This document shows, piece by piece, positions 10,337 through 50,334 of a stretch of DNA of 64,000 nucleotides. The notes under the pieces were generated by a model that worked only from the letters and a program-made list of their open reading frames with translations, did no database searches and was not told where the DNA came from. This DNA comes from Synechococcus sp. PCC 7336 (GTDB lineage: Bacteria > Cyanobacteriota > Cyanobacteriia > Thermostichales > PCC-7336), in NCBI RefSeq assembly GCF_000332275.1, contig NZ_CM001776.1, positions 4,896,008 to 4,960,007 of the forward strand, written 5' to 3'. Positions within the stretch are counted from its first letter, which is position 1, and each line of letters opens with the position of its first letter. Made by a program: the position numbers and the translations under genes.

Positions 10337-10339
10337 TTG
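10325..10339 (+). promoter_or_regulatory. Strong ribosome binding site before a TTG start
   Basis: AGGAG at 10325-10329 sits 7 nt before TTG at 10337. No ATG or GTG in the frame is equally well placed, and the DUF4347 domain begins about 14 residues later, so TTG is the likely initiation codon. Confidence 0.65.
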
Positions 10340-27986: not shown

Positions 27987-28266
27987 TAAACCCCGTCTAA
28001 GTAGAGCCCCGTAGTTTTGAGAATGTGTCTATTAGACCCTCTTACTAGCGCTGTGGTTCGCTGCATTCGCCCCCTAAATCCCCCATTCTGGGGGACTTGA
28101 GTACAGTTCCAGTTGAGGGTTGGGAGGCAAGGAAGACGATGGAGATCGGGATGATTAAAGTTGTAGAACGAAGCCAATAGTCTCTCGGAAGTCCCCCACT
28201 GGTGGGGGATTTAGGGGGCCGAGTGCAATGCCTGACAACTCCAGATCTCAGTCTGGATGGGGTTTA
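27987..28266. repeat. MITE-like repeat, copy 5
   Basis: A 280-bp element from TAAACCCCGTCTAAG to GGATGGGGTTTA, lying exactly between the two convergent LptF/G-type genes. Its last three bases, TTA, are the stop codon (TAA on the minus strand) of the second permease gene. Confidence 0.9.
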
Positions 28267-29460
28267 CGCTTTTGAAGTGCGAAGCAGCAGATAGATTGCG
28301 ATCGCACCAAAGGCAAGATTGCTGCTCCAAGCCGCTAACCCCGGTTCGAGTACTCCAGCTTTGCCCAAGCTAACCCCTAAATTCGCGCTAAAGCGATAAA
28401 AAAATAATAGAACAACCGCCAAAGCTAATGTCGCGAAGCGGGCCTTCGATCGCAGGGGGCCAATGGCTAATGGTAGCGAGATCGCAACTGCAAATAGGCT
28501 TGCCCAAGATTGAGCGAAACGATGGTGCCATTCCGTCTCCAGCTCTAGCGTCGATAGATTGGACTCTCGTTGCAAGGCTATCTGTTCTTCCAGTTCTCGA
28601 CGAGTGAGAGCATTAAGCGGTAGCTCGGACTGCAATAATGTCTGCAAGCTAGCCACATCTGATAAAGTGCGGCGATCGAAGTGGGTTTCAGCAATCGCGT
28701 TGCCATTGGGATCGTATTGATGATTGAAGCCATCGACGAGCAGCCAATTCTGACCGTCCCATACCGCTGAAGATGCTAGTGTAATTTGCTGCAAACCGAC
28801 AGGGAGTGGATCTCCACCCGGGTTTGCTTGCAGGACGGAGACATACTGCAAAGTCTTATGTATGGGTTCGGCCGATCGAATAAATAGCCAGGTATAGGGA
28901 GAAGCCTGATAAAAAACATCGTGCAGTCTGGAACTGTTTAAACTATTCGTATGAAGATAACTCTTGACATGACTAATACGCCTTTGGGTTAAAGGGACAA
29001 TCGAGTCGCCGATCCAAGCAGATGAAAGGCTAAGCAGTAGAGCAATTGTTAAAAACGGAATGCATATTTTACGATAGGAAATTCCAGCAGCTCTGAGAGC
29101 CACGAGCTCGCCACTGGAATTGAGCGTCCGCAAAGTCAGTAATGTCGAAAACAGAGCTGCAATTGGCAATGCTTGCACGACGATCGTGGGAAGATCGAGC
29201 AGAAAAATCTGCAAGCTAGCAAACAAGCTGACTCTCTCTACAATCAAGTCATTAGCCAACTCAAGCAGTTTGCCGATGCTTAGAAGGACAGTGCCGCTAA
29301 CGATACCGACGAATATAGGCCGTATAAATAAGGCTATTAGATAGCGCTGCAAGAAAAACTGCCTCGTTTCCACGTCGGTTGATTGAGTCGGAAGTGCTCT
29401 CATATAGCGGAACTCATGCGGTCGTATACGCTGCGAGGTACTCTTGTCCAGTTCTGGCAA
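28264..29460 (-). CDS. LptF/LptG (YjgP/YjgQ) family permease, second copy, behind fecE
   Basis: Up to 398 residues with the same layout as the first copy: membrane segments near 50-75, 85-115 and 130-155, a periplasmic domain, and three C-terminal segments. The GELVALRAAGISYRK loop is the LptB-contact motif. The two copies are only distantly similar outside the motifs. The gene lies 52 bp downstream of fecE on the same strand, so it is probably transcribed with the iron importer genes, an unusual pairing. Start is uncertain: TTG at 29460 gives the longest form, ATG at 29403 (RALPTQST) is also possible. The stop codon lies in a MITE terminus. Confidence 0.86.
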   Translation of the reverse strand: MPELDKSTSQRIRPHEFRYMRALPTQSTDVETRQFFLQRYLIALFIRPIFVGIVSGTVLLSIGKLLELANDLIVERVSLFASLQIFLLDLPTIVVQALPIAALFSTLLTLRTLNSSGELVALRAAGISYRKICIPFLTIALLLSLSSAWIGDSIVPLTQRRISHVKSYLHTNSLNSSRLHDVFYQASPYTWLFIRSAEPIHKTLQYVSVLQANPGGDPLPVGLQQITLASSAVWDGQNWLLVDGFNHQYDPNGNAIAETHFDRRTLSDVASLQTLLQSELPLNALTRRELEEQIALQRESNLSTLELETEWHHRFAQSWASLFAVAISLPLAIGPLRSKARFATLALAVVLLFFYRFSANLGVSLGKAGVLEPGLAAWSSNLAFGAIAIYLLLRTSKA

Positions 29461-35154: not shown

Positions 35155-36651
35155 ATGTCCAGCTCGAAATCTCCCGATCTCGAACCCCCTCTGCCCGCCA
35201 GCGAGCCGGAGCGAGGCCCCACCATTACCCTGCCGGTCATGTTCCGGTTGGGCTTGTTTCAAATGGGTTTGGGCACGATGTCCCTGCTGACGCTGGGGGT
35301 GCTCAATCGGATCATGATTGACGAGCTTAAGGTGACCGCCTTCATTGCTGCGGGGGCGATCGCCATGTATCAGTTTGTCTCCCCTGCGCGGTTGTGGTTC
35401 GGCCAACTCTCAGATACCAAACCCATTCTGGGCTACCACCGCACCAGCTACGTCTGGATTGGAGCTGCTATCTTTACCAGCATTTCGTTTGTGGCACTGC
35501 AGGTGATTTGGCGCTTGGGAGAAAGTCTGCAGACCTCGGGCTGGAGCCCAATCAGCTATACCTGGGCTGCAATCTTGGCCGCAGTCTTTGCGGTTTACGG
35601 ACTGGCCCTCAGCGCCAGTTCCACCCCATTTGCGGCTCTACTAGTGGATGTATCGGACGAAGCCAATCGCTCCAAGTTGGTCAGCATTGTCTGGTCGATG
35701 CTGATGGTGGGAATTGTGATTGGGGCTAATATCAGCTCGACCATTCTCAATACCCCCGAGATCTGCGGCAGCGATATTCTCAACTTCAATCCCGCCCTCA
35801 ACGCCCGCGTTGCCGACATCCCACAACTGCAGCAATCCGTCAATCCTTTATTTGTCATCGTGCCTGCCGCAGTCTTCGGGCTCTGCTGTCTGGCCACGGC
35901 GGGCGTAGAGAAAAAGTACTCCCGCTTTCACCAGCGATCGCGCGATTCTGGAGCCAGTCTTCGCGAAGACAAAATTGGCTTCGGCCGAGCCATCAAAATC
36001 CTCACCGCCAGCCGCCAAACGGGCCTGTTTTTCAGCTTTTTGCTGGTCATGACCATCAGCTTATTTATGCAGGATGCCGTGTTGGAACCTTACGGCGGCG
36101 AAGTCTTTGGTCTCTGCCTCGCGGATACCACTCTGCTCAATGCCTTTTTTGGGGTCGGTACCTTGCTCGGAATCGCCGGAACCGGCTTTTTGATTGTGCC
36201 CCGCCTGGGCAAACGGGGTACGACTCGGTTGGGTTGTATTGCCGCCGCCATTTGTTTTGGCCTGTTGATTCTGTCTGGTTTTAGTGGCAGTGCCAACTTT
36301 TTGCGGGGCTCTTTAGTGCTGTTTGGCCTGTCCTCCGGCATTCTCACGGCGGGGGCGATTGGTTTAATGCTGGATTTAACAGCGGCGGCAACAGCGGGCA
36401 CATTTATTGGAGCTTGGGGACTAGCTCAGGCGATGGCAAGGGGGTTGTCCACTGTCTTTGGCGGCGGCATTTTAGATTTGGGCCGACATCTATTTGAAAT
36501 CCCACTTCTGGCCTACAGCAGTGTGTTTGGGGTTCAAGCCCTAGGCATCATCACAGCACTCCTATTGTTGCGTCGAGTCAATATCAAAGAGTTTCAGGAC
36601 AATACCAAACAGGCGATCGCCGCCGTACTCAGCAGCGAAATTGAGGATTGA
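35155..36651 (+). CDS. PucC/BCD-type MFS carrier
   Basis: A 498-residue protein with about 12 membrane segments and the PucC-family pattern: LPVMFRLGLFQMGLG near residue 25, LWFGQLSDTKP between the first helices, and LVDVSDEANRSKLVSIVWSM in the middle. PucC relatives in phototrophs are linked to chlorophyll or bacteriochlorophyll delivery during assembly of light-harvesting complexes, and cyanobacteria carry several. The exact substrate here is unknown. Its stop codon lies within the opening bases of the rodA frame, so the two genes are probably co-transcribed, a pairing of photosynthesis and cell-wall functions. Confidence 0.88.
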   Translation: MSSSKSPDLEPPLPASEPERGPTITLPVMFRLGLFQMGLGTMSLLTLGVLNRIMIDELKVTAFIAAGAIAMYQFVSPARLWFGQLSDTKPILGYHRTSYVWIGAAIFTSISFVALQVIWRLGESLQTSGWSPISYTWAAILAAVFAVYGLALSASSTPFAALLVDVSDEANRSKLVSIVWSMLMVGIVIGANISSTILNTPEICGSDILNFNPALNARVADIPQLQQSVNPLFVIVPAAVFGLCCLATAGVEKKYSRFHQRSRDSGASLREDKIGFGRAIKILTASRQTGLFFSFLLVMTISLFMQDAVLEPYGGEVFGLCLADTTLLNAFFGVGTLLGIAGTGFLIVPRLGKRGTTRLGCIAAAICFGLLILSGFSGSANFLRGSLVLFGLSSGILTAGAIGLMLDLTAAATAGTFIGAWGLAQAMARGLSTVFGGGILDLGRHLFEIPLLAYSSVFGVQALGIITALLLLRRVNIKEFQDNTKQAIAAVLSSEIED

Positions 36652-36656
36652 GCCCC

Positions 36657-37940
36657 ATGATGTCCTTCCTAGGCAGTCGCCATTGGCTGAATTGGAAACA
36701 GTGGCGTAAAGATTGGAAAGACTTTGACGGCATTTTGCTGCTGACGGTAATGGCCCTCAATGCCATCGGCATCTTGGCCATTTACAGCACTCGGCAAGAC
36801 AGTTCCTTTTGGTTGCAGCAGGCCATCATGTCCTGCCTCTGTCTGGTCCTAGCGTTATTTGTGGCGCGGATTGACTATCAGATTTGGCTGAAATGGCATT
36901 GGTTTGTCTACGGGATTTGCGTTGCTCTACTGGTGGCTGTGATTTTTGTCGGCGTAACGGGGGGAGGGGCAGCTCGGTGGATTAATCTTGTCGGTTTTAA
37001 GGTGCAGCCCTCGGAGTTTGCCAAGCTGAGTGTCATTTTGACGGCAGCGGCAGTGCTGCATCGCTGGCCGATTAGGTACTTCAGTCAAATTGGCTTAGTG
37101 GCTTTGGCGATCGCCCCCCCCTGGCTGCTCATCTTCTTGCAGCCGGATTTGGGCACAGCTCTGATCTTTATCGCCATTGCGATCGGGATGTTGTATTGGG
37201 GGGGGGCTCGGTTCAGTTGGCTGCTGCTACTGAGCTCTCCCGCGATCGCCGCTATTTTCTACGGCATCTATGCCAATACCGAGGCGAAGTGGATGCTGTG
37301 GGGGTGGCTGGGTTGGGTCGCACTGGTATGCGTTTTGGCTGCTTGGCACTTGCCTTGGCGTCGATTTGGCGCGTTTGCGTTTACCGTGCTCAATCTTTTG
37401 GCAGGGGTATTGGGCCAAATTGCTTGGGGAATTCTCAAGCCCTATCAGCGGCAGCGCCTACTCATTTTTATGGACCCCAGCCAAGATCCGTTAGGGGCAG
37501 GCTATCACCTGATTCAATCGAGAATTGCCATTGGCGCGGGTGGGCTGTGGGGACGCGGGATCGCGCAAGGCACCCAAACTCAGTTAGATTTTATCCCCGA
37601 ACAGCATACAGACTTTATTTTTGCAGCGATCGGCGAAGAGCTGGGATTTATCGGGGCGATCGCCGTATTGAGCTTGATTTGGATCGTCTGTTTTCGCTTG
37701 ATTTTGATTGCCCAAAACGCTAAAGACGATTTCGGCGCGCTGGTGGCGATCGGTGTTTTTAGCATGATCCTGTTTCAGTCAATGGTCAATATCGGCATGA
37801 CCATCGGCTTGATGCCCATTACCGGCTTGCCGCTGCCGTTTGTCAGTTATGGGCGATCGGCCCTATTGACCAACTACCTGGCGTTAGGCATTGTCGAATC
37901 GATCGCCAAGCACCGACAGCGCTCGTCTTTTTTTACCTAA
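36657..37940 (+). CDS. rodA: Rod shape-determining SEDS protein
   Basis: About 427 residues with ten membrane segments. SEDS-family blocks are present: LQPDLGTALIFIAIAI, YHLIQSRIAIGAGGLWGRG, QHTDFIFAAIGEELGF and LMPITGLPLPFVSYG. RodA polymerises peptidoglycan glycan strands with a class B PBP during elongation. The QTQLDFIPEQHTDFIFA form fits RodA better than FtsW. The ATG at 36657 or 36660 is likely; a TTG at 36648 would overlap the previous stop codon. A truncated MITE copy begins 12 bp after the stop. Confidence 0.92.
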   Translation: MMSFLGSRHWLNWKQWRKDWKDFDGILLLTVMALNAIGILAIYSTRQDSSFWLQQAIMSCLCLVLALFVARIDYQIWLKWHWFVYGICVALLVAVIFVGVTGGGAARWINLVGFKVQPSEFAKLSVILTAAAVLHRWPIRYFSQIGLVALAIAPPWLLIFLQPDLGTALIFIAIAIGMLYWGGARFSWLLLLSSPAIAAIFYGIYANTEAKWMLWGWLGWVALVCVLAAWHLPWRRFGAFAFTVLNLLAGVLGQIAWGILKPYQRQRLLIFMDPSQDPLGAGYHLIQSRIAIGAGGLWGRGIAQGTQTQLDFIPEQHTDFIFAAIGEELGFIGAIAVLSLIWIVCFRLILIAQNAKDDFGALVAIGVFSMILFQSMVNIGMTIGLMPITGLPLPFVSYGRSALLTNYLALGIVESIAKHRQRSSFFT

Positions 37941-37951
37941 AGGTTTTTACC

Positions 37952-38166
37952 TAACCTCATCCATATTGAGATCTGGAGTTTATAGGCATTGCACTCGGCC
38001 CCCTAAATCCCCCACCAGTGGGGGACTTGTGAGAATCTGTTGGCTTCGATCTACAGCTTTAATAGCTGCGATTCGCCGGTTCGTCTTCCCCATCTCCAAA
38101 ACCCAAGCTAGCGCTGTCGCCAAGTCCCCCAGAATGGGGGATTTAGGGGGCGAATGCAGTGGTTAA
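37952..38166. repeat. MITE-like repeat, copy 7 (reverse orientation, truncated)
   Basis: About 215 bp in reverse orientation. The right end (TAACCTCATCCATATTGAG) and both inner arms are present; the left terminus is missing after GAATGCAGTGGTTAA. It separates rodA from the next gene. Confidence 0.83.
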
Positions 38167-38213
38167 CTGTGTCTGTATATATTACATTCAGGTTATTTGG
38201 GTAAGACATTTTG

Positions 38214-38858
38214 ATGCAAGCTAAAACACTGATGGGAGCCGTTGGTGTAACTGTACTCTCAGCTGGTTTGTGGCCGGGGGTAGGGCTTGCCCAGGATTTG
38301 GACGAACACTTGCAAGCTGCTGTTGAAGCCGAAAACTGGCCAGAGGCGATCGAGGTGTTAGATCGATTGATTGCCGAAAACGGGTCTTTGCAATCCCTCA
38401 CTGTCTATCGCAGTCAGCTCGTGCAATTGCAACGGGCTAGCAATCCAAACACCTTAGCCCCCGAAACCGAACCTCCCTCGCCGCCTCCAGAGACGGCAAC
38501 TGCATCGATCGCGATCGCAGAGATTCCCCTAGAACAGATTTCGAGCGCTCTCAACCAATCACTTCCCGTCCAAATTGACCCAAACGCAGAGTTGCTCTCG
38601 ACCTCAGTTGAAGGAGATACGTTCGTTTACGATACGCGGTTGTTGAGAGTTAAAGCTCGGGAAACGAACCCTGCCTTAATTGGTGAAGCGTTTGAAGCTT
38701 TCTTTTCCGCTTACGCTTGTGAAGAGCCCTCGCTGAAATCTCTGCTCGATGCGGGCATTCCGCTGCGCTTTAGCCTCAACGATGTTAACAACACCCCTCT
38801 GTCCGATCTAGACTTGCATCCCGACACTTGCAGTGCCCGAGAACTTGCGTTCGAATAG
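38214..38858 (+). CDS. Secreted protein of unknown function with N-terminal TPR-like helix pair
   Basis: About 214 residues. A signal peptide ends near GVGLAQ. A helix pair rich in Ala, Glu and Leu (~28-75) looks TPR-like. A Pro/Glu linker follows, then a domain (~105-214) with two cysteines (SAYACEEPSLKSLLDAG and PDTCSARE). The domain recalls small secreted cyanobacterial proteins that end shortly after a Cys, but I cannot name the family. The ATG at 38214 directly follows an in-frame TTG at 38211. It is encoded just after a truncated MITE and 311 bp before the giant TPR gene. Confidence 0.7.
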   Translation: MQAKTLMGAVGVTVLSAGLWPGVGLAQDLDEHLQAAVEAENWPEAIEVLDRLIAENGSLQSLTVYRSQLVQLQRASNPNTLAPETEPPSPPPETATASIAIAEIPLEQISSALNQSLPVQIDPNAELLSTSVEGDTFVYDTRLLRVKARETNPALIGEAFEAFFSAYACEEPSLKSLLDAGIPLRFSLNDVNNTPLSDLDLHPDTCSARELAFE

Positions 38859-39169
38859 CCCATCGCTCGGGCAAAGCACCTCTACAGCATTGAGTGGCCC
38901 GATCGGTACAGCCTTAACTTGCCAATCCCCTGACATTTGTTACCAACTCTTGCTGACTGTCACAGTTTGAATAGAACGGCAATGATGGGGGAAATCTTGT
39001 CAGAGGATAGAGGCTGTGCGACAGGGCAACCGGCTAGTCGTTGTTTAGGCCGGTTGACTGCTCTAGCCCTTAGTTTTCCATCGACCGATTGGCGAGACCT
39101 GGGTGGTAAAGGGCGATGGCCCTCTCGGCGATCGCCAGCTCGCGCAATCACTTGAGGCCGACGATCGAT
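38859..39169. other. Intergenic region before the giant TPR gene
   Basis: 311 bp with no hairpin, repeat or small gene that I can support. The alternative ATG of the TPR gene at 39116 lies within it. Confidence 0.5.
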
Positions 39170-42100
39170 ATGGCGGACAGCAACCAAAACCGAGCACTGG
39201 TCTTGTGGGGCACGGCCTTGGGCTTCTCTGCCGGAGTGTTCGCAGCGACGATCTCGATCGCCCCCCAATCGCCACTGCGGGTCCGGGCTCAAAGCAATCG
39301 CCCCAGAACGACATCGATCGCTGACTCAGCCAAGCCGGTCATCGCACAGGCCGATCCCCAACCCACACTGCCCGCCCGAGTCCCCGAACGCGTCGTGGAA
39401 GGTTATACCCTGCTCGAACAGGGATTGGTGGACGATGCCATCTTGACTTTTAGACAGGCGATCGCAGACTTTCCCGCCTCGATTGAGGCCAAGTTGGGCT
39501 TGGCGATCGCGCTGCGCCGCGCCGGTCGCGATCGCCAGAGTTGGGAGGCTTATGGGGCTGTGCTGGCGCAAGAGCCCGATAATGTGTTGGCTCTGGAGAC
39601 GGTAGGGCAGTTGGGCACCTTTCGACCGGAATGGTACGAGGGAGGGCTGGAGGCTCTAGATCGGCTGATCGAGATTGCGCCCAATCGGCTCAGTGCCCGC
39701 CTCAATCGGGCTCGCATTCTTAGCTTTCAACAACGGTTTGAAGCGGCCACCGCCGACTACGAAGTTGCCCTGCGGCTAGACCCCACCCCCGAACTGCAGT
39801 TGGAAGCCGCCAAAGCCTTTGCCTTCTCGGGGCAACACCCTCGGGCGATCGCCCTGTTCGAGCAATACTTCGCGGCTGGTCGCGACCTCGCAGAGAAGGA
39901 TGCAGCGATCGCCTATGCCTTGTCCCTACAGGGGGTCGAGCGGGCGGTAGAAGCGCTGGAGGTGCTGCGTCCCCGTCAGGCGGATACGCAGGTGGCCGCA
40001 GTTTTGGCGTCGATTTTGGTGGGATTGGCCGCACAGCCGGATGCCCCCGAGGAATATCAGTCTGAGGCGATCGCCATTTATACCCGGCTGTTGGCGATCG
40101 AGGATCTCGACGCCGAGATTATTTTGGCGGCGGCCAGTTTTTACAGCACGGTGCCCGAGCGGCAATTGCAGTCGCTGGAACTGTACGACCGACTGACGGC
40201 ACTGTTTCCCGGCGATCGCAGTTTTCCCATCATGCGGCTGGCGGTGGAGAGCGTGGTGCTGAGCGAAGCGCCTACCTCCCATCCACTCGTGCAGCAACTC
40301 AGCCCCAATTGGATGCCGGGATTTGTTTACCAGCTCGATTTGCGGGAGCGGCTGCAGGCATTAGTCCTACCCGACTTAGACATCCCCCCCGAGCGACAGC
40401 AGCCAGTGGGCCAAACCTTAGTGCGAGTCGATCCCCTCGATCCCGAGCTGCTGCCGATTTTCGAGAGCTTGCAGCAGGCAGAGATCGACCTTCCCTTGAT
40501 TGATTTCCGCCTTGCCCAATTGCAAATCGAGTTGGGGGATAGAGAGAGTGCGCGGACGACGATCGCAGCGGCTGTGGCAGAGCAGGGGGATGCCTTTGCC
40601 GATAATGCAGAACTGCTGCTGGCGGAGATCGATCGCCGCGAGGGTCGCCTCGACGCCAGCATCCAGCGTTACGAACGGCTGCTGGCCCGCAGCGCGGACC
40701 CGGCTATTCGTCGGGGCGCTACGTTGAGCTTGGCAGGAGCCAATATCAGTCTCAACAATCTGGAGCGAGCGCGGCGGCTGTACGAACAACTGCTGGCGAT
40801 CGAGCCGCTGGATTTGCAGGCAGAAGTGGGATTGACGACGGTCTTGCTGGCGGAGGAGTCCCTATCCGAGCGCGAGGCTGCAGAAGTCTTGGATCGTTGG
40901 TTGGAGCGCTTCCCCTTTCGAATACCCAGCCCCGAGGTATTTGCCCTCGCGAGCGGTCTCCCCAGCACGAGTGCTCGACTGGGGTTGTATGAAGGGCTGT
41001 TGGCGGTGCGGCCCCAGGATTTTGGGGTACAGGTGCGGCTTGTGGAGGCATTGGCCGCGACGGACCTGCTGGCCGCTCGGGCTCGTCTGGACGAGTTTCG
41101 CGAGCGGGTTGCGCCAGAGTCTGAGGCGGCGCGACAGTTGAGTTTTCTGGCGGCTCGGTTGCTGCAAGAGGCAGGAGATTTAGACGGAGCAGCAGCGGCA
41201 TACGAGACAATTGTGGCTACCGATCCGCAGGATACCGATGCGTTGCTGGCCTTAGCCGAGCTGCGCCAACAGCAGGGGAATGGGGCAGCGGCTCTGGCGC
41301 TGTACGAGCGCATTGTTCGGAGCGATCCCGATCGCCTAGAGGCTTGGCTAGCCTTGGCCGAGCTGCGAAGCGAAGCAGGAGATGAGGCAGGGGAGGCGGA
41401 GGCGCTGGCGGCGATCGCCCAGATTGAAACCAACAACCTAGAGGTGCTGTTTCCCCTAGCAGATTTTCGGCGAGAGCAGGGGGAGTTGGCCGAGGCGCTG
41501 CAGATTTACGAACGCATTGTGGCGATCGAGCCCGAGAATATTGGGGCGCTGCAAGCTCTGGCGGGAACTGCGACGGAATTGGGGCAGATCGAGCGGGCTT
41601 TGTTGGCCTACGAAACGCTGCTGACAGTGGCCCCCAATTCGACAGACGTGCTGCTGGGTTTCGCAGGCTTGCAGTTACAGATCGGAGATTTGGAGGAATC
41701 CCACCAGCTCTACCAGCAGGTCTTAGCCCTCGACCCCACTAATGCAGCGGCCCTCGATGCCATTCTCAATATTCTGCCCGCCCAACCGGACGCCCCAGAA
41801 CGGTTCTTGCGGGAGGCGATCGCTCTCTACGACGAGCAGTTGAGTCAGCCCGACCCCGACCCCGCCATCGTCCGGGATGCCGCCCTCCTCTTTGCCACCG
41901 TGCCCGATCGCTATTCGCAAGCACTGCAACTGTTCGACCGGTTAATTGTGCGCTTTCCCACCAACCGCAGCTATACCATCCAGCAACTCGCCCTCGAAAG
42001 CATCGTGCTGGCCGATGCCGCTCGGGCCAACCCCGTCGTGCAGCCCCTAGCCGAACAGTGGCCCGTGGGATTTTTGTATCACCTCAACCTACGCGATCGC

Positions 42101-45100
42101 CTGCAAGCGGCCCTAGCTCTGCCGGAAACCGAGCCCGAGCGACAACAGCAAATTGCAGAAGTCTTGGCCCGAATCGATCCCCCCGATCCAGACCTATTAG
42201 AGGTTTATCAACAATTGTTGGATGCACAGGTAGACGTTCCTTTGTTGGACTTTCGGGTAGCCCAGATGTGGGTGGAACGGGAGAAGGCAGTGGCGGCGAA
42301 GGCAGCTTTGGAGATAGTCCTGGCGCGGGGAGGCATTGGGGCAGCAGGAGCGGAATTGCTGCTGGCGGAACTGGACCGTCAGGCGGGCTCGATTGAGGAG
42401 AGTATGCAGCGGTACGAAACGCTGCTCAACCATCCCGATGGAGGGGTACGGCGAGGGGCGATCCTGGGTTTGGCGGGATTGCAGGTGGCCCGGGAGGATT
42501 TCGAGCGGGCGCGGCAACTGTACAACTTGGCACTGCGGGACAATCCTGAAGACCTACAGGCGATCGCGGGCTTGGCTGCCGCCAATTATTTAGACGACGC
42601 CCTCTCTCAGCCAGAAGCCGAAGCCGTTCTGGCGCAGTGGCTCGATCGCTTTCCCTTCCGCATGCCCACAGCCGAATTCACTCGCCTCGCCACTGCCCTA
42701 CCCGCCGATTTAGATCGCTTGGACCTATACGAGGGTCTATTGGCCTTCACCCCTGCCAATCGGGACCTCCAGATTCACATTGTGGCTGCCCTCTCCCAGC
42801 TCGAACCAGTGGCTGCCCGCACCCGCTTGGAAGAGTTTCGCCGTCAGATGGGGACTGGCGATGGGCACTTGGCCCAGGCGTTGCATTTTATCAGTGCCCA
42901 ACTGCATGTGGATCGTGGGAATTTGTCAGCAGCGGCGGCAGATTACAACGCCATCTTGGCCGACGACCCCGATGCCGTGGCTGCCCTCTTGGGCTTGGCA
43001 GCCCTGAGACGGGAGCAGGGGGACGAGTCGGCAGCACTGGAGCTTTACGAGCGGGTGCGGGCGATCGCCCCCGGCAATCTAGAAGTGTGGTTCGCTCTGG
43101 CGGATTTGCGCCAGCAGCGGGGGGATGAGGCTGGGGCGCTACAAGCTTATGCCGAGGTCTTGCAGCTCGATCCCGAGAATGTGCAGGTGCGGTTTGCGCG
43201 GGCAGATTTGCGCCGACGGCAGGGGAATCTGGCGGCGGCACTGGAGGATTACGAACAGATTTTGGCGATCGCTCCTGCCAATCTTCCCGCCCTACAATCG
43301 CTGGCGGGCACTGCCACAGAACTGGAGCAGTTCGATCGCGCTTTACTGGCCTACGAAACCCTGCAAACCTTAGCTCCCGATTCTGCTGACGTGCTGTTGG
43401 GCTTGGCGGGGTTGCGACTGCGGCAGGGGGCTTTGTTAGAGGCGCAGGTGCTCTACGAACAGGTGCTGGCGATCGCCCCCGATAACGAAACCGCCCTCGA
43501 CGCCCTTCTGAATGTCTTGCCGCTTCAGCCCAATGCCCCCGAGAGCCTGCGCCAAGATGCCTTTGCCCGCTACGAGGCGCTGCTGGCAGAATCCAATGTA
43601 TCGGTCGAAACCCTCCGCAAGACCGCCAAATTCTTCAGTCAATTTCCCGAAAAACAACTGGACGCCCTAGCCGTCTTCGATCGCCTCATCGCCCTTTCCC
43701 CCAGCGATCGCAATTTACCCGCCTTGCGGCTGGTGACGGAAAGTGTGCTGCTGAGTCGGGCGAATGCCTCGAACGAGCGGGTGCAAGAACTTGCCCTCGA
43801 CTGGAATCCGGGCTTTCTCTATCAACTGGAGTTGCGCGATCGCCTGCGGCTGGCCCTGCGTCCTCCTCTGCCGACCGAACGGGAACAGCAGCAGGAATTG
43901 GCAGAATTCCTAGTCCGTCTCGATCCCCCTAACCCGCAGCTCTTGGCGATTTATCAGAGCTTCGAGCGGGCGGGGCTGGAACTGCCGCTGCTGCCCTTCC
44001 GCATTGCCCAAATGCAGTTGGAACGAGGACTGACGGATGCTGCTCGGCAGACGCTGACCGCACTGGTGGCCGACGAGGGCGATTTCGCCGAGAGTGCTCA
44101 ATTGTTGTTGCTCGATCTAGAGTTGCAGGAGGGGGCCAATGTGCTGAGTCGGCAGCGCTACGAAACCCTGATTGCCAATAGCTCTAACCCCGAAGTGGTG
44201 CGGGGGGCGCGGCTCAGCTTAGCTGGGTTGCTGGCGCAGCAAGGCGATCGTCCCGCAGCCATCGCACAGTACGATGCTTTGCTGGATGCGAACCCCACCG
44301 ACTTGCAGGCAGAAGTGGGGCTGGCAGCACTGTCTCTCCAAGAAGAGACGATCGAGCTCGAAGCTGCAGAAGCCATCTTGGAGCGCTGGTTCGATCGCTT
44401 CCCGTTCCGCATCCCGCCCGCCGAGGCGATCGCTTTACTCAATGCTCTCCCCGGCAGTGGGGAGCGCTTGCCCCTGTATGAAGGATTATTGGCCTTACGG
44501 CCAGAGAATGCCGGTTTGCGGGTGCGCTTTATCGAGGCTTTGGCAGCAATCGATCCAGTGGCCGCCCGCACGCGCCTAGAAGACTTCCGCCGTCGCCTGT
44601 CTCCAGGGGATGTAGAGATGGCGCGGGCCCTCAATTTCGCCAGCGCTCAGTTGAGTGTGGCGGAAGGGGATCTGGAGGGGGCGGCGGCGATCTATGACAG
44701 TCTATTGACGGGCGAGCCCGACGATATCGAGCTGCTGTTGGCGCTGGCAGACGTGCGGCAGCAGCAGGGGAACGGGGATGCTGCCCTGCAGATTTACGAG
44801 CGCATCCGCCGCCTCGAACCCGAGAATATCGATGCCTTGTTCGTGCTGGCGGATTTAAAACGACAGCAGAATGACTTGGCAGGAGCAGCGCAGGTGTATG
44901 GGGAGTTGTTGGCGATCGCCCCCGACAACCTCCCGGCCCTGTTTGCACTCGCCAGTTTCCGGCAAGAGCAAGGGGAGTTCGATCGCGCTCTAGCCGCTTA
45001 CGAGCGCATTGTGGCGATCGAGCCGGAAAATATCGGCGCGCTCCAGGGGCTAGCAGGCAGCTTGGCCGAATTGGGGCAAGTCGATCGCGCCCTGGTCACC

Positions 45101-48100
45101 TACGACACCCTGCTGCTACTCGCCCCCGACTCCACCGACGTGCTGCTGGGTCTGGCAGGATTGCAACTGCAACGGGGGGATTTGCTAGAGTCGCGACGGC
45201 TTTACAATCGCGTGCTGGCAAAAGATCCCGACAATCCTGTCGCCCTCGACGCCGTCCTCAACATCCTGCCCGCCCAACCGGATGCCCCCGCCAGCTTCGT
45301 GCAAGACGCGATCGCCCTCTACGACGACCTGTTGAGCGCCCCCAATCCCGACCCAGCTTTAGTCCGATCGGCCGCGGCGTTCTTCGGCACCCTACCCGGG
45401 CAGCGGCAAACCGCTCTGGATTTGTATCGCGATCTGGCCGATCGCTTTCCAGAAGATGACAGTTTGCCGGTACAGCAATTAGCTCTAGAAGCCATTCTGC
45501 TGCGGGATGCCGACAGCAGCGAGCCCCTTGTTACAGAACGGTCCCGCCAGTGGCCGATTGGTTTCCTCTACCAGCCCGAATTGCAAGACCGCCTGCAGGC
45601 AGCATTGGCGGCAGCGGCGATCGCCGATCCGGCCCGCCAGCGGGATGTAGCCCAACTCTTGGTCCGTCTCGATCCCCCCGATCCAGCCCTCCTCGCCACC
45701 TACCAGGAGTTCGACAGCCCCGCAGTGGACGTGCCGTTCTTGGCCTTCCGCATTGCCCAAATGCAACTGGAGTTGGGCCAAAACGAAGCCGCCCGCCAAA
45801 CCCTCACCAGTGCCGCTGCCACCCGAGGGCCGGATTTTGCCGCCAGTGCGGAATTGCTGATCGCCTCTCTAGAACGGCAGGTGGGGCGAGCAGACCGCAG
45901 CATTCGCCGCTATGAAGACATCATTGCCAGCGAAGACCTGGAGAGTGAGGAGATTCGGCGGGCAGCGATTCTGAATTTGGCTGGCTTGAGAGCCGCTCAG
46001 AACGAGCGGGAGGCAGCTCGCGAGCTCTACGAGCGCCTCCTATCCGACAATCCCGACGACCTGCAGGCCCAGCTGGGCTTGGCTTCCCTCGACGTGGTGG
46101 ACGATCGCATTGCCGATGTGGAGGGGGAAGCCCTACTCGATAGCTGGTTCGATCGGTTCCCTTTCCGGGAGCCCCCACCAGAGGTCTATCGACTGGTGTC
46201 CGAGCTATCCCCCAGAGTGGAGCGGTTGGATTTGTACAGCGCCATGCTCGAGCTCGAACCAGAAGCCTTTGGCGTTCAGATTCGCCGAATTGAAGCTCTC
46301 GCCTTACTCGATCCGGTGGCGGCGCAAGCGGAGTTGACGGCATTGAAGCGTCAATTCCCTGCCGACTCTTCTGAAGGGGTGGCGCTGAATTTTCTCGCCG
46401 CCCGCCTGCGCTTGGAGCGAGAGGACTTTGACGGCGCACTGGCGGCCTATCGAGAGATTGTCGATGCCGATGCGCGCAACGTTGGTGCTTGGCTGGCGCT
46501 GGCAGATTTGCTGCGGCAATTGGACGATCCCGCCGCCGCTCGCGAGGCTTACCAGCGCATCGTCCGCCTGGAACCGGATAATGTCTCTGCCCTGTTTGCT
46601 CTAGCGGAGTTGGAGCGGCAAGAGGGGCAACTCAACGCCGCCGCTCGTCTACTGACCGGGGTTGTAGCAGCCCAGCCCGAGAATATCGCAGCATGGCAAG
46701 CCTTGGGAGGCGTGCGCGCCGAACAGGGACAAGTCGATCGCGCTGCCGCCGCCTACGAAACCATCTTGGAGCTCGATCCCGATAACCTCGACGCGATCCA
46801 GGGGCTCGCCAGCAAGCGCTTCGAGCAAGGGCAATTGGAAGACGCCTTCCAACTGTTCGAGCAGGTGTTGGCTGCCGATCCCGATAATGAAGTGGCGCTG
46901 GAGGCGTTACTCGACAGCCTGCCCAGCCAACCCGGGGCCTCCGATGCCATCCGAGCAAAAGCGATCGCCCTCTACGACGACATTTTGGCGGACCCCACCA
47001 CCGAGGCCGATACCCTGCGGGAGGCGGCCAATTTCTTCAGTCGCCTGCCCGCACAGCGCGATCGCGCCTTAGAGCTTTACGACCGGCTCGTACAGGACTT
47101 CCCCGCCGACGACACACTGCGGGTACAGCGACTGGCGATCGAAAGCGTCTTGCTGCGGGAGGCCGATAGTGACGATCCGCTGGTGCAGGAGCTGTCCGAG
47201 GATTGGGAAATCGGCTTCCTCTATCAGGTGGACCTGAAGGAGCGGCTGCAACAGGTGCTCTTGCCCATTGCCCTGATTCCCCCCGAACAACAGCTAGATG
47301 CCGCTCAGTCTGTGGTCCGCCTCGATCCCCCCAACTCCGAACTGATGGCCTTCTACGAAATCCTGCGGGAGGCTGAGGCGGTGGATGTGCCCTTCATCGA
47401 CTTCCGCATTGCTCAAATGCAGTTGGAAGAGGACGACACGATCGCCGCTCGCAGAACCCTAGCCCGAGGAAAAGCCGCCTTTGGAGAAGACTTCGATGCC
47501 AACGCCGAGCTGTTACTGGCGGATATCGATCTGAAGGAGGACCGCGAAGAGCGGGCCATCCGCCGCTACGAAGCTCTACTGGACGATCGGGATCTGGAGT
47601 TACCCTCGGTGGCGCGCGGGGCCGCCCTCAGTCTGGCCGGACTGCGCATCAAACGGGGCGAGCGCGACGAAGCCCGCCGCCTCTACCGCGAGCTATTGCG
47701 CAACGATGCCGACGACCTGCAGGCCGAAGTGGGCCTCGTCGCGGTGTCCCTAATTGACCAACTGGCCTCGCGCGCCGAGGGAGAAGAGATGCTCGATCGC
47801 TGGTTCGAGCGCTTCCCCTTTCGCGAGCCCCCCCCCGAGGTGTATACCTTGGTGGCCGTGCTGCCCACCGATTTCTCCCGCTTGGAACTGTACGAGGCCA
47901 TGCTGGTCATCGAGCCGGACGATGTGAATGTGCGGCTGCGCTACATCGAAGCCCTTGCCCGAGTGGACCCGGCAGAGGCTCGCGCGCAACTAACCCGATT
48001 GCGTCGAACAGTTCCACCCGAGACTGATGAAGGTCGTGCGGTCAACACCCTTAACAATCGTCTCCAACTCGCGACAGACGACGCGATCGCCTCAGCAGCA

Positions 48101-49207
48101 GACTCCACTCCAGAAGCATCTGGGACCCCTGGCCGCACTCGCCCCCCTCTACGTCCCGCTGTTGGCCCCTCGGCTCCGCGTGCGATCGCCTCTTTTGGCT
48201 CGCGATCTCCCGCTGTCGTGCGAACGCCGCCGCCACCGAGGCTGGTTGCCGCCGCGCCTCCTCCCCGAGGAGTGGTGGATGCTCCGCCGCAGGCCGCTCC
48301 CGCGCCGCCATCTCCGCCTTCCCAACCCTTACCCCCCGGCTCTTCTCCGGCTCAAGCCCCGCCTGCTAGGGCCACAGTTGGAGAGTTATTCGCGTTTGCC
48401 GAAGCCCGCAAGCAAGTGGGAGATTTTGTGGGAGCTGCTGCTGCCTACGAACGAATTGTCAGTCTCGATCCCAATAACGCTGGGGCTTGGTTTGCCTTGG
48501 CCGATGCCCGTCGCCAGCTTGGCGATGTGGTGGGGGCAAAGCAGGCATTTGAAGTGACTCGCTCCCTCGACCCCACCAATCCAGATGTGTACTTTGCGCT
48601 GGGGGATTTTCTCCAGTCTTTGGGGGATTTTGATGGGGCGTTGGCGGTCTACGGACAACTGCTGGCGATCGATCCGAGCAATATTGATGCGCGGTTTGTG
48701 ACGGCGAATGCCTATCGGAGGCAGGGACGACTGGATTTGGCGGCTCGCACCTACGAGGAGATTATCGAGCTCGACCCCAATAATGTGAATGCTTTGCAAG
48801 CGCTGGCGGGGGTGAGGGCCGAGCTAGGGCAGACGGAGTTGGCGGTACGAGCCTACGAACGATTAATTGTCCTCCAGCCTAGTGCGGTCGATCCTTTGCT
48901 GGCTTTGGGGGGAATTCGCTTCTCGCAGGGGCGATTGGAGGAGGCGAGAGATTTGTACGAGCGGGCGTTGGCTCTCGACCCCACGAATGACATTGCTCTT
49001 TCTGCGGCCCAGAGTCTGTTTTGGGCGCAATTCGATCGCGAGGGCGCAGAACAACCGGTTTCGGCCTACCGACAACTGCGGGAGTTCGAGGCGGAGGATG
49101 AAGTGCTGGGCGATCCCCCCGACACCGAGGTGCTGTCGCGCTTGCGCCGCATTGAGTTGAATTTTCTGCGGCGGCGGGGGTTCCAGCCCCGCTGGGAGCG
49201 GTTTTAA
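39170..49207 (+). CDS. Giant tetratricopeptide-repeat protein with five long super-repeats
   Basis: About 3,345 residues. The ATG at 39170 begins a good signal peptide (ALVLWGTALGFSAGVFAATIS); an in-frame ATG at 39116 would add 18 residues before it. Almost the whole chain is TPR helices with the pattern ALxxYExxLxxxPxN. These are organised into five super-repeats of about 583 residues, each with a RFPFR motif (near 40907, 42647, 44396, 46152 and 47808) and a GFLYQLxLRDRLQ motif. A Pro/Ala-rich linker (~2,995-3,085) precedes six final TPRs and a basic C terminus. TPR arrays bind proteins, so a periplasmic or surface scaffold is likely; no enzymatic domain is seen. The gene converges with the pentapeptide gene, 17 bp between stops. 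Function is not known. Confidence 0.88.
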   Translation: MADSNQNRALVLWGTALGFSAGVFAATISIAPQSPLRVRAQSNRPRTTSIADSAKPVIAQADPQPTLPARVPERVVEGYTLLEQGLVDDAILTFRQAIADFPASIEAKLGLAIALRRAGRDRQSWEAYGAVLAQEPDNVLALETVGQLGTFRPEWYEGGLEALDRLIEIAPNRLSARLNRARILSFQQRFEAATADYEVALRLDPTPELQLEAAKAFAFSGQHPRAIALFEQYFAAGRDLAEKDAAIAYALSLQGVERAVEALEVLRPRQADTQVAAVLASILVGLAAQPDAPEEYQSEAIAIYTRLLAIEDLDAEIILAAASFYSTVPERQLQSLELYDRLTALFPGDRSFPIMRLAVESVVLSEAPTSHPLVQQLSPNWMPGFVYQLDLRERLQALVLPDLDIPPERQQPVGQTLVRVDPLDPELLPIFESLQQAEIDLPLIDFRLAQLQIELGDRESARTTIAAAVAEQGDAFADNAELLLAEIDRREGRLDASIQRYERLLARSADPAIRRGATLSLAGANISLNNLERARRLYEQLLAIEPLDLQAEVGLTTVLLAEESLSEREAAEVLDRWLERFPFRIPSPEVFALASGLPSTSARLGLYEGLLAVRPQDFGVQVRLVEALAATDLLAARARLDEFRERVAPESEAARQLSFLAARLLQEAGDLDGAAAAYETIVATDPQDTDALLALAELRQQQGNGAAALALYERIVRSDPDRLEAWLALAELRSEAGDEAGEAEALAAIAQIETNNLEVLFPLADFRREQGELAEALQIYERIVAIEPENIGALQALAGTATELGQIERALLAYETLLTVAPNSTDVLLGFAGLQLQIGDLEESHQLYQQVLALDPTNAAALDAILNILPAQPDAPERFLREAIALYDEQLSQPDPDPAIVRDAALLFATVPDRYSQALQLFDRLIVRFPTNRSYTIQQLALESIVLADAARANPVVQPLAEQWPVGFLYHLNLRDRLQAALALPETEPERQQQIAEVLARIDPPDPDLLEVYQQLLDAQVDVPLLDFRVAQMWVEREKAVAAKAALEIVLARGGIGAAGAELLLAELDRQAGSIEESMQRYETLLNHPDGGVRRGAILGLAGLQVAREDFERARQLYNLALRDNPEDLQAIAGLAAANYLDDALSQPEAEAVLAQWLDRFPFRMPTAEFTRLATALPADLDRLDLYEGLLAFTPANRDLQIHIVAALSQLEPVAARTRLEEFRRQMGTGDGHLAQALHFISAQLHVDRGNLSAAAADYNAILADDPDAVAALLGLAALRREQGDESAALELYERVRAIAPGNLEVWFALADLRQQRGDEAGALQAYAEVLQLDPENVQVRFARADLRRRQGNLAAALEDYEQILAIAPANLPALQSLAGTATELEQFDRALLAYETLQTLAPDSADVLLGLAGLRLRQGALLEAQVLYEQVLAIAPDNETALDALLNVLPLQPNAPESLRQDAFARYEALLAESNVSVETLRKTAKFFSQFPEKQLDALAVFDRLIALSPSDRNLPALRLVTESVLLSRANASNERVQELALDWNPGFLYQLELRDRLRLALRPPLPTEREQQQELAEFLVRLDPPNPQLLAIYQSFERAGLELPLLPFRIAQMQLERGLTDAARQTLTALVADEGDFAESAQLLLLDLELQEGANVLSRQRYETLIANSSNPEVVRGARLSLAGLLAQQGDRPAAIAQYDALLDANPTDLQAEVGLAALSLQEETIELEAAEAILERWFDRFPFRIPPAEAIALLNALPGSGERLPLYEGLLALRPENAGLRVRFIEALAAIDPVAARTRLEDFRRRLSPGDVEMARALNFASAQLSVAEGDLEGAAAIYDSLLTGEPDDIELLLALADVRQQQGNGDAALQIYERIRRLEPENIDALFVLADLKRQQNDLAGAAQVYGELLAIAPDNLPALFALASFRQEQGEFDRALAAYERIVAIEPENIGALQGLAGSLAELGQVDRALVTYDTLLLLAPDSTDVLLGLAGLQLQRGDLLESRRLYNRVLAKDPDNPVALDAVLNILPAQPDAPASFVQDAIALYDDLLSAPNPDPALVRSAAAFFGTLPGQRQTALDLYRDLADRFPEDDSLPVQQLALEAILLRDADSSEPLVTERSRQWPIGFLYQPELQDRLQAALAAAAIADPARQRDVAQLLVRLDPPDPALLATYQEFDSPAVDVPFLAFRIAQMQLELGQNEAARQTLTSAAATRGPDFAASAELLIASLERQVGRADRSIRRYEDIIASEDLESEEIRRAAILNLAGLRAAQNEREAARELYERLLSDNPDDLQAQLGLASLDVVDDRIADVEGEALLDSWFDRFPFREPPPEVYRLVSELSPRVERLDLYSAMLELEPEAFGVQIRRIEALALLDPVAAQAELTALKRQFPADSSEGVALNFLAARLRLEREDFDGALAAYREIVDADARNVGAWLALADLLRQLDDPAAAREAYQRIVRLEPDNVSALFALAELERQEGQLNAAARLLTGVVAAQPENIAAWQALGGVRAEQGQVDRAAAAYETILELDPDNLDAIQGLASKRFEQGQLEDAFQLFEQVLAADPDNEVALEALLDSLPSQPGASDAIRAKAIALYDDILADPTTEADTLREAANFFSRLPAQRDRALELYDRLVQDFPADDTLRVQRLAIESVLLREADSDDPLVQELSEDWEIGFLYQVDLKERLQQVLLPIALIPPEQQLDAAQSVVRLDPPNSELMAFYEILREAEAVDVPFIDFRIAQMQLEEDDTIAARRTLARGKAAFGEDFDANAELLLADIDLKEDREERAIRRYEALLDDRDLELPSVARGAALSLAGLRIKRGERDEARRLYRELLRNDADDLQAEVGLVAVSLIDQLASRAEGEEMLDRWFERFPFREPPPEVYTLVAVLPTDFSRLELYEAMLVIEPDDVNVRLRYIEALARVDPAEARAQLTRLRRTVPPETDEGRAVNTLNNRLQLATDDAIASAADSTPEASGTPGRTRPPLRPAVGPSAPRAIASFGSRSPAVVRTPPPPRLVAAAPPPRGVVDAPPQAAPAPPSPPSQPLPPGSSPAQAPPARATVGELFAFAEARKQVGDFVGAAAAYERIVSLDPNNAGAWFALADARRQLGDVVGAKQAFEVTRSLDPTNPDVYFALGDFLQSLGDFDGALAVYGQLLAIDPSNIDARFVTANAYRRQGRLDLAARTYEEIIELDPNNVNALQALAGVRAELGQTELAVRAYERLIVLQPSAVDPLLALGGIRFSQGRLEEARDLYERALALDPTNDIALSAAQSLFWAQFDREGAEQPVSAYRQLREFEAEDEVLGDPPDTEVLSRLRRIELNFLRRRGFQPRWERF
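39900..47990 (+). repeat. Five ~1.75-kb coding super-repeats in the TPR gene
   Basis: The RFPFR motif recurs at intervals of about 1740, 1749, 1756 and 1656 bp. Surrounding motifs (ILPAQPDAPE, LVRLDPPDP, FRIAQMQLE) recur in the same order. Protein-level similarity is high and DNA-level similarity moderate, so the duplications are not very recent. Confidence 0.8.
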
Positions 49208-49224: not shown

Positions 49225-50334
49225 CTAAGGGGCGTCGAGTCTCACCATCCCAGCCGCTTCGGGCGCAAAATCGCCATCGAAACGGGTCTGTTCGCTATAG
49301 CAGGACCCCTGCAACTGAGCTTCTTGCAGATTAGCGCCTAACAGATTGGCTCCTCTGAGATTGACCTGCTGCAATAGCGCTCCCTGCAGATTAGCGCGGC
49401 ACAAGTTGACTGCACTCAAATTGGCTTGGCTCAGATCGGCCTCTATCAACGTTGCTCTGCTCAAATCAGCCTGTCTGAGATTGGCAAACACCAAAACCGC
49501 GCCACTCAAATTGGCTTCACTCAAATTGACATTATATAAATTCGCTTCGCTCAAATTGGCCTCGATCGCGTTGACACCCTGCAGATCGGCAGCACTTAAA
49601 TTAGCCGCACTCAAACTAGATTCTTGCAGGTTGGCTGCTGTTAAAACTACATCGCAGAGATTGGCTTCAGCCAGGTCGGCGTTAGCTAGATTTGCATCGC
49701 GAAATATGCGCTCTCCAGCAGAGTATTCCTGCAAGAGTTCAACCGCGCTGCCAACTGCTTGTGTCTCTGCAGGTTCTTCGTCAGCCAAAACTTCAACCGT
49801 TGATTGTGCCTCTTCAACATTCTCATCAGTCAAGAGTTCAACCGCACGATCGACCGATTGTGTTTCCTCGGGTTCTTCGTTAGTCAAGAATTTAGCCACA
49901 TGACCAATCGATTGTATTTCCTCAGGTTCCTCATCAGCCAAGAGTTCAGTTATACTGCCAACCGATTGTGTTTCTTCAGGTTCCTCGTCAGCCAAAAGTT
50001 CAACTGTCGATTGTGCCTCTGCGGGTTCCTCGTCAGAGGTGCTGGCGAATTCGATGCTGCGAGCCCAAACTGGAGCCATCGAGCCCGGTTGCAAGCCATA
50101 GAAGGTGACGCCACGCAGCGATCGGGGGGCGAGCCCGACAAATGCCTGTTCTAGGGGGGGCACAAAGTTTTGTGGCCGGGGAGGCGGATCGGATTCTAGC
50201 TCGACTTGGAGAACATCTCGATCGACCGAAACCCTTGCCGTAACACCCCGATCGCCTAAAGCGCGATTGAGGATCGAGGCAATAGCATCTGGATCTCCTT
50301 GTTTGGCCAGTTCGATTACTTGTTGCGCAGCCAT
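49225..50334 (-). CDS. Pentapeptide-repeat protein with acidic repeat spacer
   Basis: A 369-residue protein in three parts. Residues 1-95 (AAQQVIELAKQGDPDAIASI, then a VTFYGLQPGS segment) form a small domain often seen at the start of cyanobacterial multidomain proteins. Residues ~100-210 are an acidic spacer built from about six imperfect copies of LLADEEPEETQSVG. Residues ~215-345 are pentapeptide repeats (A-N/D-L-x-x), which fold into a right-handed quadrilateral helix, ending with a short unique tail. Pentapeptide proteins in cyanobacteria have varied, mostly unknown roles. No membrane segment or signal peptide is visible, so it is probably cytoplasmic. Converges with the TPR gene. Confidence 0.88.
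   Translation of the reverse strand: MAAQQVIELAKQGDPDAIASILNRALGDRGVTARVSVDRDVLQVELESDPPPRPQNFVPPLEQAFVGLAPRSLRGVTFYGLQPGSMAPVWARSIEFASTSDEEPAEAQSTVELLADEEPEETQSVGSITELLADEEPEEIQSIGHVAKFLTNEEPEETQSVDRAVELLTDENVEEAQSTVEVLADEEPAETQAVGSAVELLQEYSAGERIFRDANLANADLAEANLCDVVLTAANLQESSLSAANLSAADLQGVNAIEANLSEANLYNVNLSEANLSGAVLVFANLRQADLSRATLIEADLSQANLSAVNLCRANLQGALLQQVNLRGANLLGANLQEAQLQGSCYSEQTRFDGDFAPEAAGMVRLDAP

Follow-up and report, generated by a model that had tools for sequence, protein, structure and literature searches.

A giant five-unit TPR protein in Synechococcus sp. PCC 7336 and its kinship with the TPR proteins of cyanobacterial cellulose clusters

The giant gene and its repeated layout

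The window analysed here is a stretch of 64,000 nucleotides from the cyanobacterium Synechococcus sp. PCC 7336, whose genome of 5.07 Mb is assembled in one contig. At 4.94 Mb lies the gene for a giant protein made largely of tetratricopeptide repeats (TPRs), which has genes for a PUCC transporter, RodA, a small protein and a pentapeptide-repeat protein as neighbours. The RodA gene (36648-37940) is upstream and co-directional, with about 1.2 kb between the two. A MITE-like inverted repeat with perfect 16-base ends (37999-38150) separates RodA from the small gene (38211-38858), which encodes an apparently exported protein of 215 aa without a Pfam or NCBIfam match. The gene for the pentapeptide-repeat protein (49225-50334) is convergent with the giant gene, and 54-bp direct repeats in it encode an acidic segment.

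The features of the giant gene are collected in Table 1. An open frame of 3363 codons has a chance of about 1e-44 given the base composition. Judged by eye, the in-frame ATG at 39170, which places a hydrophobic segment near the N-terminus, is the likelier start. This segment and the Pfam TPR matches (TPR_19 at E 1.1e-114) agree with the initial annotation, which had described an exported and almost pure TPR chain. The chain does not run unbroken to the end, since a proline-rich linker stands between unit 5 and the last TPRs. The protein contains no cysteine.

Table 1. Features of the giant TPR gene, in window coordinates.
Feature	Position	Strand	Details
Giant TPR protein gene	39116..49207	+	ORF of 3363 aa; likely start ATG 39170
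Putative N-terminal export signal region	39170..39290	+	hydrophobic segment, then VRAQS; no lipobox cysteine; by eye
N-cap TPR domain, single copy	39377..40033	+	about aa 88-306
Unit 1	40034..41782	+	aa 307-889, 583 aa; GFVYQ aa 402, RFPFR aa 598
Unit 2	41783..43525	+	aa 890-1470, 581 aa; GFLYH aa 985, RFPFR aa 1178
Unit 3 (structure modelled)	43526..45274	+	aa 1471-2053, 583 aa; GFLYQ aa 1566, RFPFR aa 1761
Unit 4, about one TPR shorter	45275..46927	+	aa 2054-2604, 551 aa; GFLYQ aa 2149, RFPFR aa 2347
Unit 5, core alone	46928..48085	+	aa 2605-2990; GFLYQ aa 2700, RFPFR aa 2899; spacer TPRs absent directly behind
Pro/Ala-rich linker	48086..48364	+	about aa 2991-3083
C-terminal canonical TPR block	48365..49165	+	from sequence and Pfam
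Family C-terminal signature LRRRGFQPRWERF	49166..49204	+	extreme end of the giant, RGFQPRWERF
Weak terminator-like hairpin and T run	49189..49201	+	3' end; such sites in the region no commoner than in shuffles

Behind the conserved core of about 390 aa that every unit contains, units 1 to 3 have about five to six canonical TPRs and unit 4 has about one fewer. The core thus occurs five times, between an N-cap and a C-terminal signature that are each present once. Five units had been described, each carrying two landmark motifs in a fixed order, and this is what is found: there are five RFPFR and five GF[LV]Y[QH] motifs, where composition predicts 0.0018 and 0.0015 per protein. Successive RFPFR motifs are 580, 583, 586 and 552 residues apart, and successive GF[LV]Y[QH] motifs 583, 581, 583 and 551.

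A BLOSUM62 autocorrelation of the protein over lags of 20 to 1499 has its peaks at 1164, 583 and 34. When blocks of 34 aa were shuffled, which keeps the TPR period, none of 500 shuffles attained the observed signal at 583 or at 1164. The period of 583 residues proposed earlier is thus borne out by the shuffles, but it is not strict, as unit 4 has 551 aa and unit 5 consists of the core only.

The five units align along their length; between cores, protein identity is 38-50% and DNA identity 52-58%. Identity at this level points to an old duplication rather than an assembly repeat. An assembly artefact is ruled out, because the cores differ at 42-48% of DNA positions.

Fold of one unit

A structure prediction of one unit had been suggested together with the initial annotation. 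AlphaFold2 was run on unit 3 with 19 relatives, and the resulting model is an all-helical TPR superhelix (mean pLDDT 93.3, pTM 0.76) with 33 helices in 583 residues and zero strands. GFLYQ forms the opening of helix 96-110, right behind a short helix (84-90), and RFPFR forms the end of helix 278-291 plus the next loop. In comparisons with known structures (Foldseek, VIA-align 2), the model matches TPR superhelices, for instance OGT (1w3b; Z 19.6, rmsd 9.2, 378 residues aligned, model residues 153-583) and a consensus TPR (8chy; Z 20.8). Residues 1-120 are spanned by few structural matches and are barely tested against known folds.

The match to TPR superhelices means that the landmarks are conserved parts of the TPR solenoid. 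They had been taken for separate non-TPR modules; the modelled unit is instead one continuous helical superhelix, which rules out a new domain. In fold the landmarks are ordinary TPR helices, a possibility that the initial annotation itself had raised, but the core that carries them is kept across a wider family.

GFLYQ falls in an insertion of about 20 residues relative to the single-core members of this family, and part of the insertion is present in the PCC 7336 paralogue. RFPFR is a local variant of a conserved stretch. A search for it in other cyanobacteria had been proposed: the core stretch is indeed present in the single-core family, but with other letters at that place.

A single-core family in cyanobacterial cellulose clusters

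Homologues with a single core are mostly 700-830 aa long, have the same N-cap and a RGFQPxWER-like end, and are encoded in cyanobacterial cellulose clusters. The cluster order is OprB-type porin, TPR protein, BcsZ (a GH8 cellulase), BcsB and BcsA. A profile of the core matches the five giant units at E 6.5e-112 to 2.9e-121, from model position 1 or 2 to 336 or 337 of 337, and the single-core proteins at E as low as 3.4e-142. In the first search, which covered 58 genomes besides PCC 7336, 12 genomes had full-core matches (E<1e-30), and three of these had two each.

Sixteen neighbourhoods of these genes, including that of PCC 7336, were clustered, and their gene families were named by scanning members from two of them (L039 and L054). 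BcsB-like proteins are encoded in 15 of the 16, BcsA in 13, the porin in 13 (14 if L043 is counted, where a porin profile search finds one) and GH8 in 10. Some of the absences are contig ends, and L048 has a BcsA fragment at its end. The BcsA of L039 scores 687.2 bits, below the CelA cut-off of 699.1. The RGFQPxWER end is exact in 13 of the 16 operon TPR proteins, with one change in each of the other three.

In Allocoleopsis franciscana PCC 7113, the TPR protein is WP_015211488.1, annotated 'tetratricopeptide repeat protein' and encoded on plasmid pMIC7113.02. Its gene overlaps by 4 bases with the end of the upstream gene, which matches the porin profile (E 1.4e-155) and is annotated 'hypothetical protein' in the one named record examined. 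BcsB is encoded nearby on the opposite strand.

An invariant stretch, DLTSYFDRNSFAKD, is common to all 12 porins that were aligned. Pfam OprB (PF04966) is listed at E<=1 for seven of these 12 family porins, with a best value of 4.8e-12; the PCC 7336 porin scores 18.1 bits, under the cut-off of 22.9. A model of the PCC 7336 barrel has 16 strands (pLDDT 80.7), and its best match is OprB of P. putida (4gey; Z 27.5, rmsd 2.7, 296 aligned), the next entry having a Z of 22.3. A sequence search of solved chains at E<=1 found none that resembles the porin.

The distribution was surveyed in 388 genomes of the class, which gene content and named matches show to be Cyanobacteria, with limits of E<=1e-30 for the TPR core and the porin and E<=1e-20 for BcsB; for the core, five candidates were scored per genome. 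The TPR core is present in 109 genomes (PCC 7336 included), the porin in 109 and BcsB in 105. Core and porin occur together in 108 genomes, core and BcsB in 104, all three in 103 and none of the three in 277. The matches listed include 146 single-core places (145 of the survey and the one of PCC 7336, with the giant's five units excluded), and 130 of them have a porin gene on the same strand at most 3 kb upstream. At least eight of the other 16 sit too near a contig edge to show it. The TPR protein and the porin co-occur almost perfectly with BcsB, which makes them a concrete pair of candidate export proteins that can be put to the test. In the eight further genomes from the order of PCC 7336, neither TPR core, porin nor BcsB is present at the survey limits.

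In PCC 7336 itself there is one full-core protein besides the giant, of 718-721 aa, encoded at genome positions 3928974-3931130 (L054:8785-10941). This paralogue is short and divergent and lies inside the cellulose cluster, where the porin, TPR, BcsZ and BcsB genes occupy positions 3925222-3932892 without BcsA. A matching BcsA-like gene is found about 2.65 Mb away, at 1273824-1276466. Its product carries TED, QQVRW and PilZ, shares 49-58% identity with 13 BcsAs from operons (a contig end cuts one of these), and scores 656.5 bits over part of the CelA model, below the cut-off of 699.1.

The BcsA-like gene is preceded by an accessory gene (L062:6744-7841) for a protein of 365 aa, with hydrophobic segments near the N-terminus by eye. 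Relatives of the gene occur in six of the cellulose neighbourhoods; the protein has no Pfam match above cut-off and is possibly a further component. By the cellulose locus there is also a CRISPR-like array of short direct repeats, PLFPTNPFQRMGKG (L054:14896-19606), which adjoins proteins that by eye resemble type III CRISPR RAMP proteins.

Descent and possible function of the giant

The giant has the full-length core of the cellulose-cluster TPR family in five of five units, together with the N-cap and the RGFQPxWER end. Its N-cap is 44-51% identical to that of the four operon TPR proteins compared and 39% identical to that of the PCC 7336 paralogue. Its C-terminal end is 33-41% identical to the same four proteins over 108-110 aa and 39% identical to the paralogue over 56 aa. 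Giant and single-core proteins thus share the N-cap, the conserved core, the TPR tail and the terminal signature; the single-core proteins differ in having one core instead of five, a gene beside the porin gene, and no counterpart to the roughly 20 residues of the GFLYQ insert. As judged from sequence, descent of the giant from this family can be regarded as firm. The giant is unusual in form and ordinary in fold, and is explained by its descent.

The initial annotation knew of no protein with such a layout. No other five-unit protein was found in the searches made here, but single-core relatives occur in 109 of 388 genomes. Among the matches listed in these genomes, no frame besides the giant exceeds 957 aa, and multiple core matches in three genomes (G246, G260 and G296) were ruled out as multi-unit proteins, as they are on separate contigs or in pieces. 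A narrow pattern scan of 84,980 named species, PCC 7336 possibly outside them, gave two loci in one MAG, both single-core pieces. Because one genome of the family of PCC 7336 was sampled, the fivefold form may occur in unsampled relatives. PCC 7336 has two more very long TPR frames, of 2119 and 2603 aa, which are matched outside the conserved core (genome positions 4304005-4307031 and 2686636-2687478).

A tree was built from 46 cores. It unites the five units of the giant in a single clade (100/100), in which units 4 and 5 are sisters (96/81), and does not fix the branching order of units 1-3. The five units and the PCC 7336 paralogue stand apart from the rest (95/93), with long branches and four rows flagged for unlike composition. 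These relationships are read here as suggesting that the gene was duplicated in the PCC 7336 lineage and that one copy was then enlarged by internal duplication.

Positions kept in at least 12 of 14 operon proteins were taken as conserved, which gives 81 in the N-cap, 71 in the core and 31 in the C-terminal end. The giant keeps 57 of the 81, 45-52 of the 71 in each core and 21-24 of the 31, the last spread stemming from the alignment; the same N-cap and C-terminal end were present in each test chain. None of its five cores stands out as decayed. The operon copy of PCC 7336 keeps 51, 53 and 13 respectively, so that it is worn at the C-terminal end and not in the core.

A selectively neutral repeat expansion without specific function can be given hardly any weight in view of these counts. 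Repeat genes readily expand, and a single genome yielded the five-unit form; yet every core keeps 45-52 of the 71 conserved positions, and the frame is fully open (chance about 1e-44) although the cores have diverged to 38-50% identity. It is also quite improbable that the giant is an envelope scaffold tied to its present neighbours, such as RodA in cell-wall elongation. The RodA gene is upstream and co-directional, but the small gene and the inverted repeat intervene in about 1.2 kb, the adjacency is known from one genome, and no ORF groups with the window's RodA in an all-against-all comparison of 16 family loci.

The giant is probably an enlarged scaffold for cellulose export, since its module occurs once, beside a porin, in the cellulose clusters of other cyanobacteria. 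The reading preferred here takes it for a lineage-specific paralogue of the TPR half of a 'split BcsC', standing alone and amplified five-fold internally, that would act as a multivalent scaffold in cellulose export. Its gene is solitary in the window, adjoining neither OprB-type porin nor BcsZ/BcsB genes.

The name 'split BcsC' reflects an analogy. According to passages of two papers (PMC9384988, PMC9734138), BcsC, PelB and PgaA fuse their TPRs to a barrel, and the TPR-like scaffold AlgK is separate from the porin AlgE in alginate export; by analogy, the cyanobacterial clusters would encode a BcsC in two parts, the porin and the TPR protein. AlgK is described there as a lipoprotein with about 9.5 Sel1-like repeats, whereas the giant has no cysteine, has canonical TPRs and is far larger. 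Sel1 is absent among the best 25 of the 36 Pfam matches of the giant. The TPR domains of PgaA and PelB are reported to bind polymer and/or its processing enzyme, both in the case of PgaA (passages of PMC9384988), and are fused to a barrel, unlike the giant; that of PgaA has about 13 hairpins and is about 110 A long.

Proteobacterial BcsC shares with the giant a long TPR superhelix, and it belongs to a cellulose system. Among the profile-search matches listed is a BcsC chain (9b8a; E 1.4e-17), whose best stretch covers the TPR tail (profile 327-462). A C-terminal barrel is part of BcsC but not of the giant, whose family has its porin as a protein apart, of the OprB type. The giant was therefore ruled out as a BcsC: it ends in TPRs and RGFQPRWERF, without an outer-membrane barrel. 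Against NCBIfam BcsC (NF008520), it collects 155.8 bits from six partial stretches, where the cut-off is 858 bits.

Other assignments were rejected as well. The giant scores 498.2 bits against the PEP-CTERM TPR lipoprotein PrsT (TIGR02917, cut-off 312.2), but this is the sum of 12 partial generic-TPR stretches, and there is no lipobox cysteine; single-core relatives score 42.6 and 109.3 bits. Several NCBIfam cut-offs for SycD/LcrH, MamA, YbgF, PA2778 and SctY-type families are also exceeded by summed generic TPR score.

If the preferred reading is right, BcsA and BcsB would synthesise glucan at the plasma membrane, a periplasmic TPR superhelix would bind the enzymes and/or the glucan chain, and the OprB-type porin, a 16-strand barrel, would give the glucan its way out. 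Porin and TPR protein would jointly fill the role of BcsC, as AlgE plus AlgK do for alginate. Because the N-cap and the C-terminal signature are kept once, the giant would have the same partners and offer them five sites over a span several times longer. Since the core is multiplied and the ends are single, the ends may provide the contacts with the porin and the inner-membrane side, and polymer or enzyme may be held by the cores. Each unit has about 16 hairpins and the whole giant roughly 90; if straight, it would measure some tens of nanometres (estimated at the 110 A per 13 hairpins of PgaA). Its periplasmic location, partners and polymer binding are presumed, and its descent and kept ends suggest service to cellulose rather than to another glycan.

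Several points speak against this best reading. The giant gene lies outside the cellulose locus, in a genome with a single porin of the OprB-type family, and the operon TPR protein is already present with a core (53 of 71) slightly above any of the giant's. A single genome was found to have the five-unit form, and the grouping with the PCC 7336 paralogue (95/93) rests on long branches and unlike composition. The BcsAs of PCC 7336 and L039 are both under the CelA cut-off of 699.1 bits, and cellulose is the presumed product of the clusters. Finally, a published model for other cyanobacteria has HlyD and TolC instead (in passages of PMC12430437).

Alternatively, a paralogue of cellulose-TPR descent may have been neofunctionalised and now support a different process in the envelope as a scaffold. 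An example would be the export of a second beta-glycan, with one of the two further strong BcsA-like synthases in PCC 7336 as its maker. These two proteins, at 464.5 and 442.4 bits to the CelA model, would suit such a role, as would the detachment of the giant gene from the cellulose locus and the RFPFR variant and GFLYQ insert that separate its cores from the single-core family. This alternative is considered rather unlikely, because in neither the N-cap nor the C-terminal end does the giant keep fewer family-conserved positions than the operon copy, and because PCC 7336 has no second OprB-type family porin and no second BcsB at E<=1e-20.

The wider interest lies in how cyanobacteria export cellulose. 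In the portions of a phylum-wide survey drawn on here (PMC4594306), the BcsC_C domain is missing from all cyanobacteria analysed, and BcsB and GH8 are found in a very restricted number of them. Passages of a further paper call cyanobacterial cellulose secretion poorly defined, put forward a XcsA-HlyD-TolC model and describe type IV operons as being without bcsB (PMC12430437). Some alpha-proteobacterial cellulose operons are without BcsC, which is read in the corresponding passages as a hint of another export route (PMC7112194). Literature searches, judged by title and the start of the abstract, returned nothing on point for giant cyanobacterial TPR proteins or for Synechococcus sp. PCC 7336 with cellulose. 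For the porin-TPR arrangement, titles, abstract openings and some passages held no description, and one may exist elsewhere.

As a tentative possibility, more than a quarter of the sampled cyanobacteria might export cellulose through a split BcsC of OprB-type porin and TPR scaffold, the scaffold of PCC 7336 being a chain of five binding modules. If this is true, the split BcsC is the outer-membrane exit left open by the phylum-wide survey that found no BcsC barrel. The five-module chain (about 90 hairpins, tens of nanometres extended) could then lead several glucan chains through a thick envelope or gather them into a bundle. As a candidate cellulose exit in cyanobacteria reported without a BcsC barrel, the split BcsC outweighs the giant in value. 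The giant can serve as a natural experiment: the core can be multiplied and the N-cap and C-terminal signature stay single, which marks the latter as possible docking places for partners.

Other proteins are also encoded in the window. A surface protein of 1417 aa (10337-14590) has DUF4347, 291-bp tandem repeats and bacterial Ig/cadherin-like domains, with a single RTX repeat match towards its end. One protein with both LptC and LptA/LptD_N matches is encoded near a convergent LptF/LptG permease pair (20911-22470, 26800-27963 and 28264-29460).
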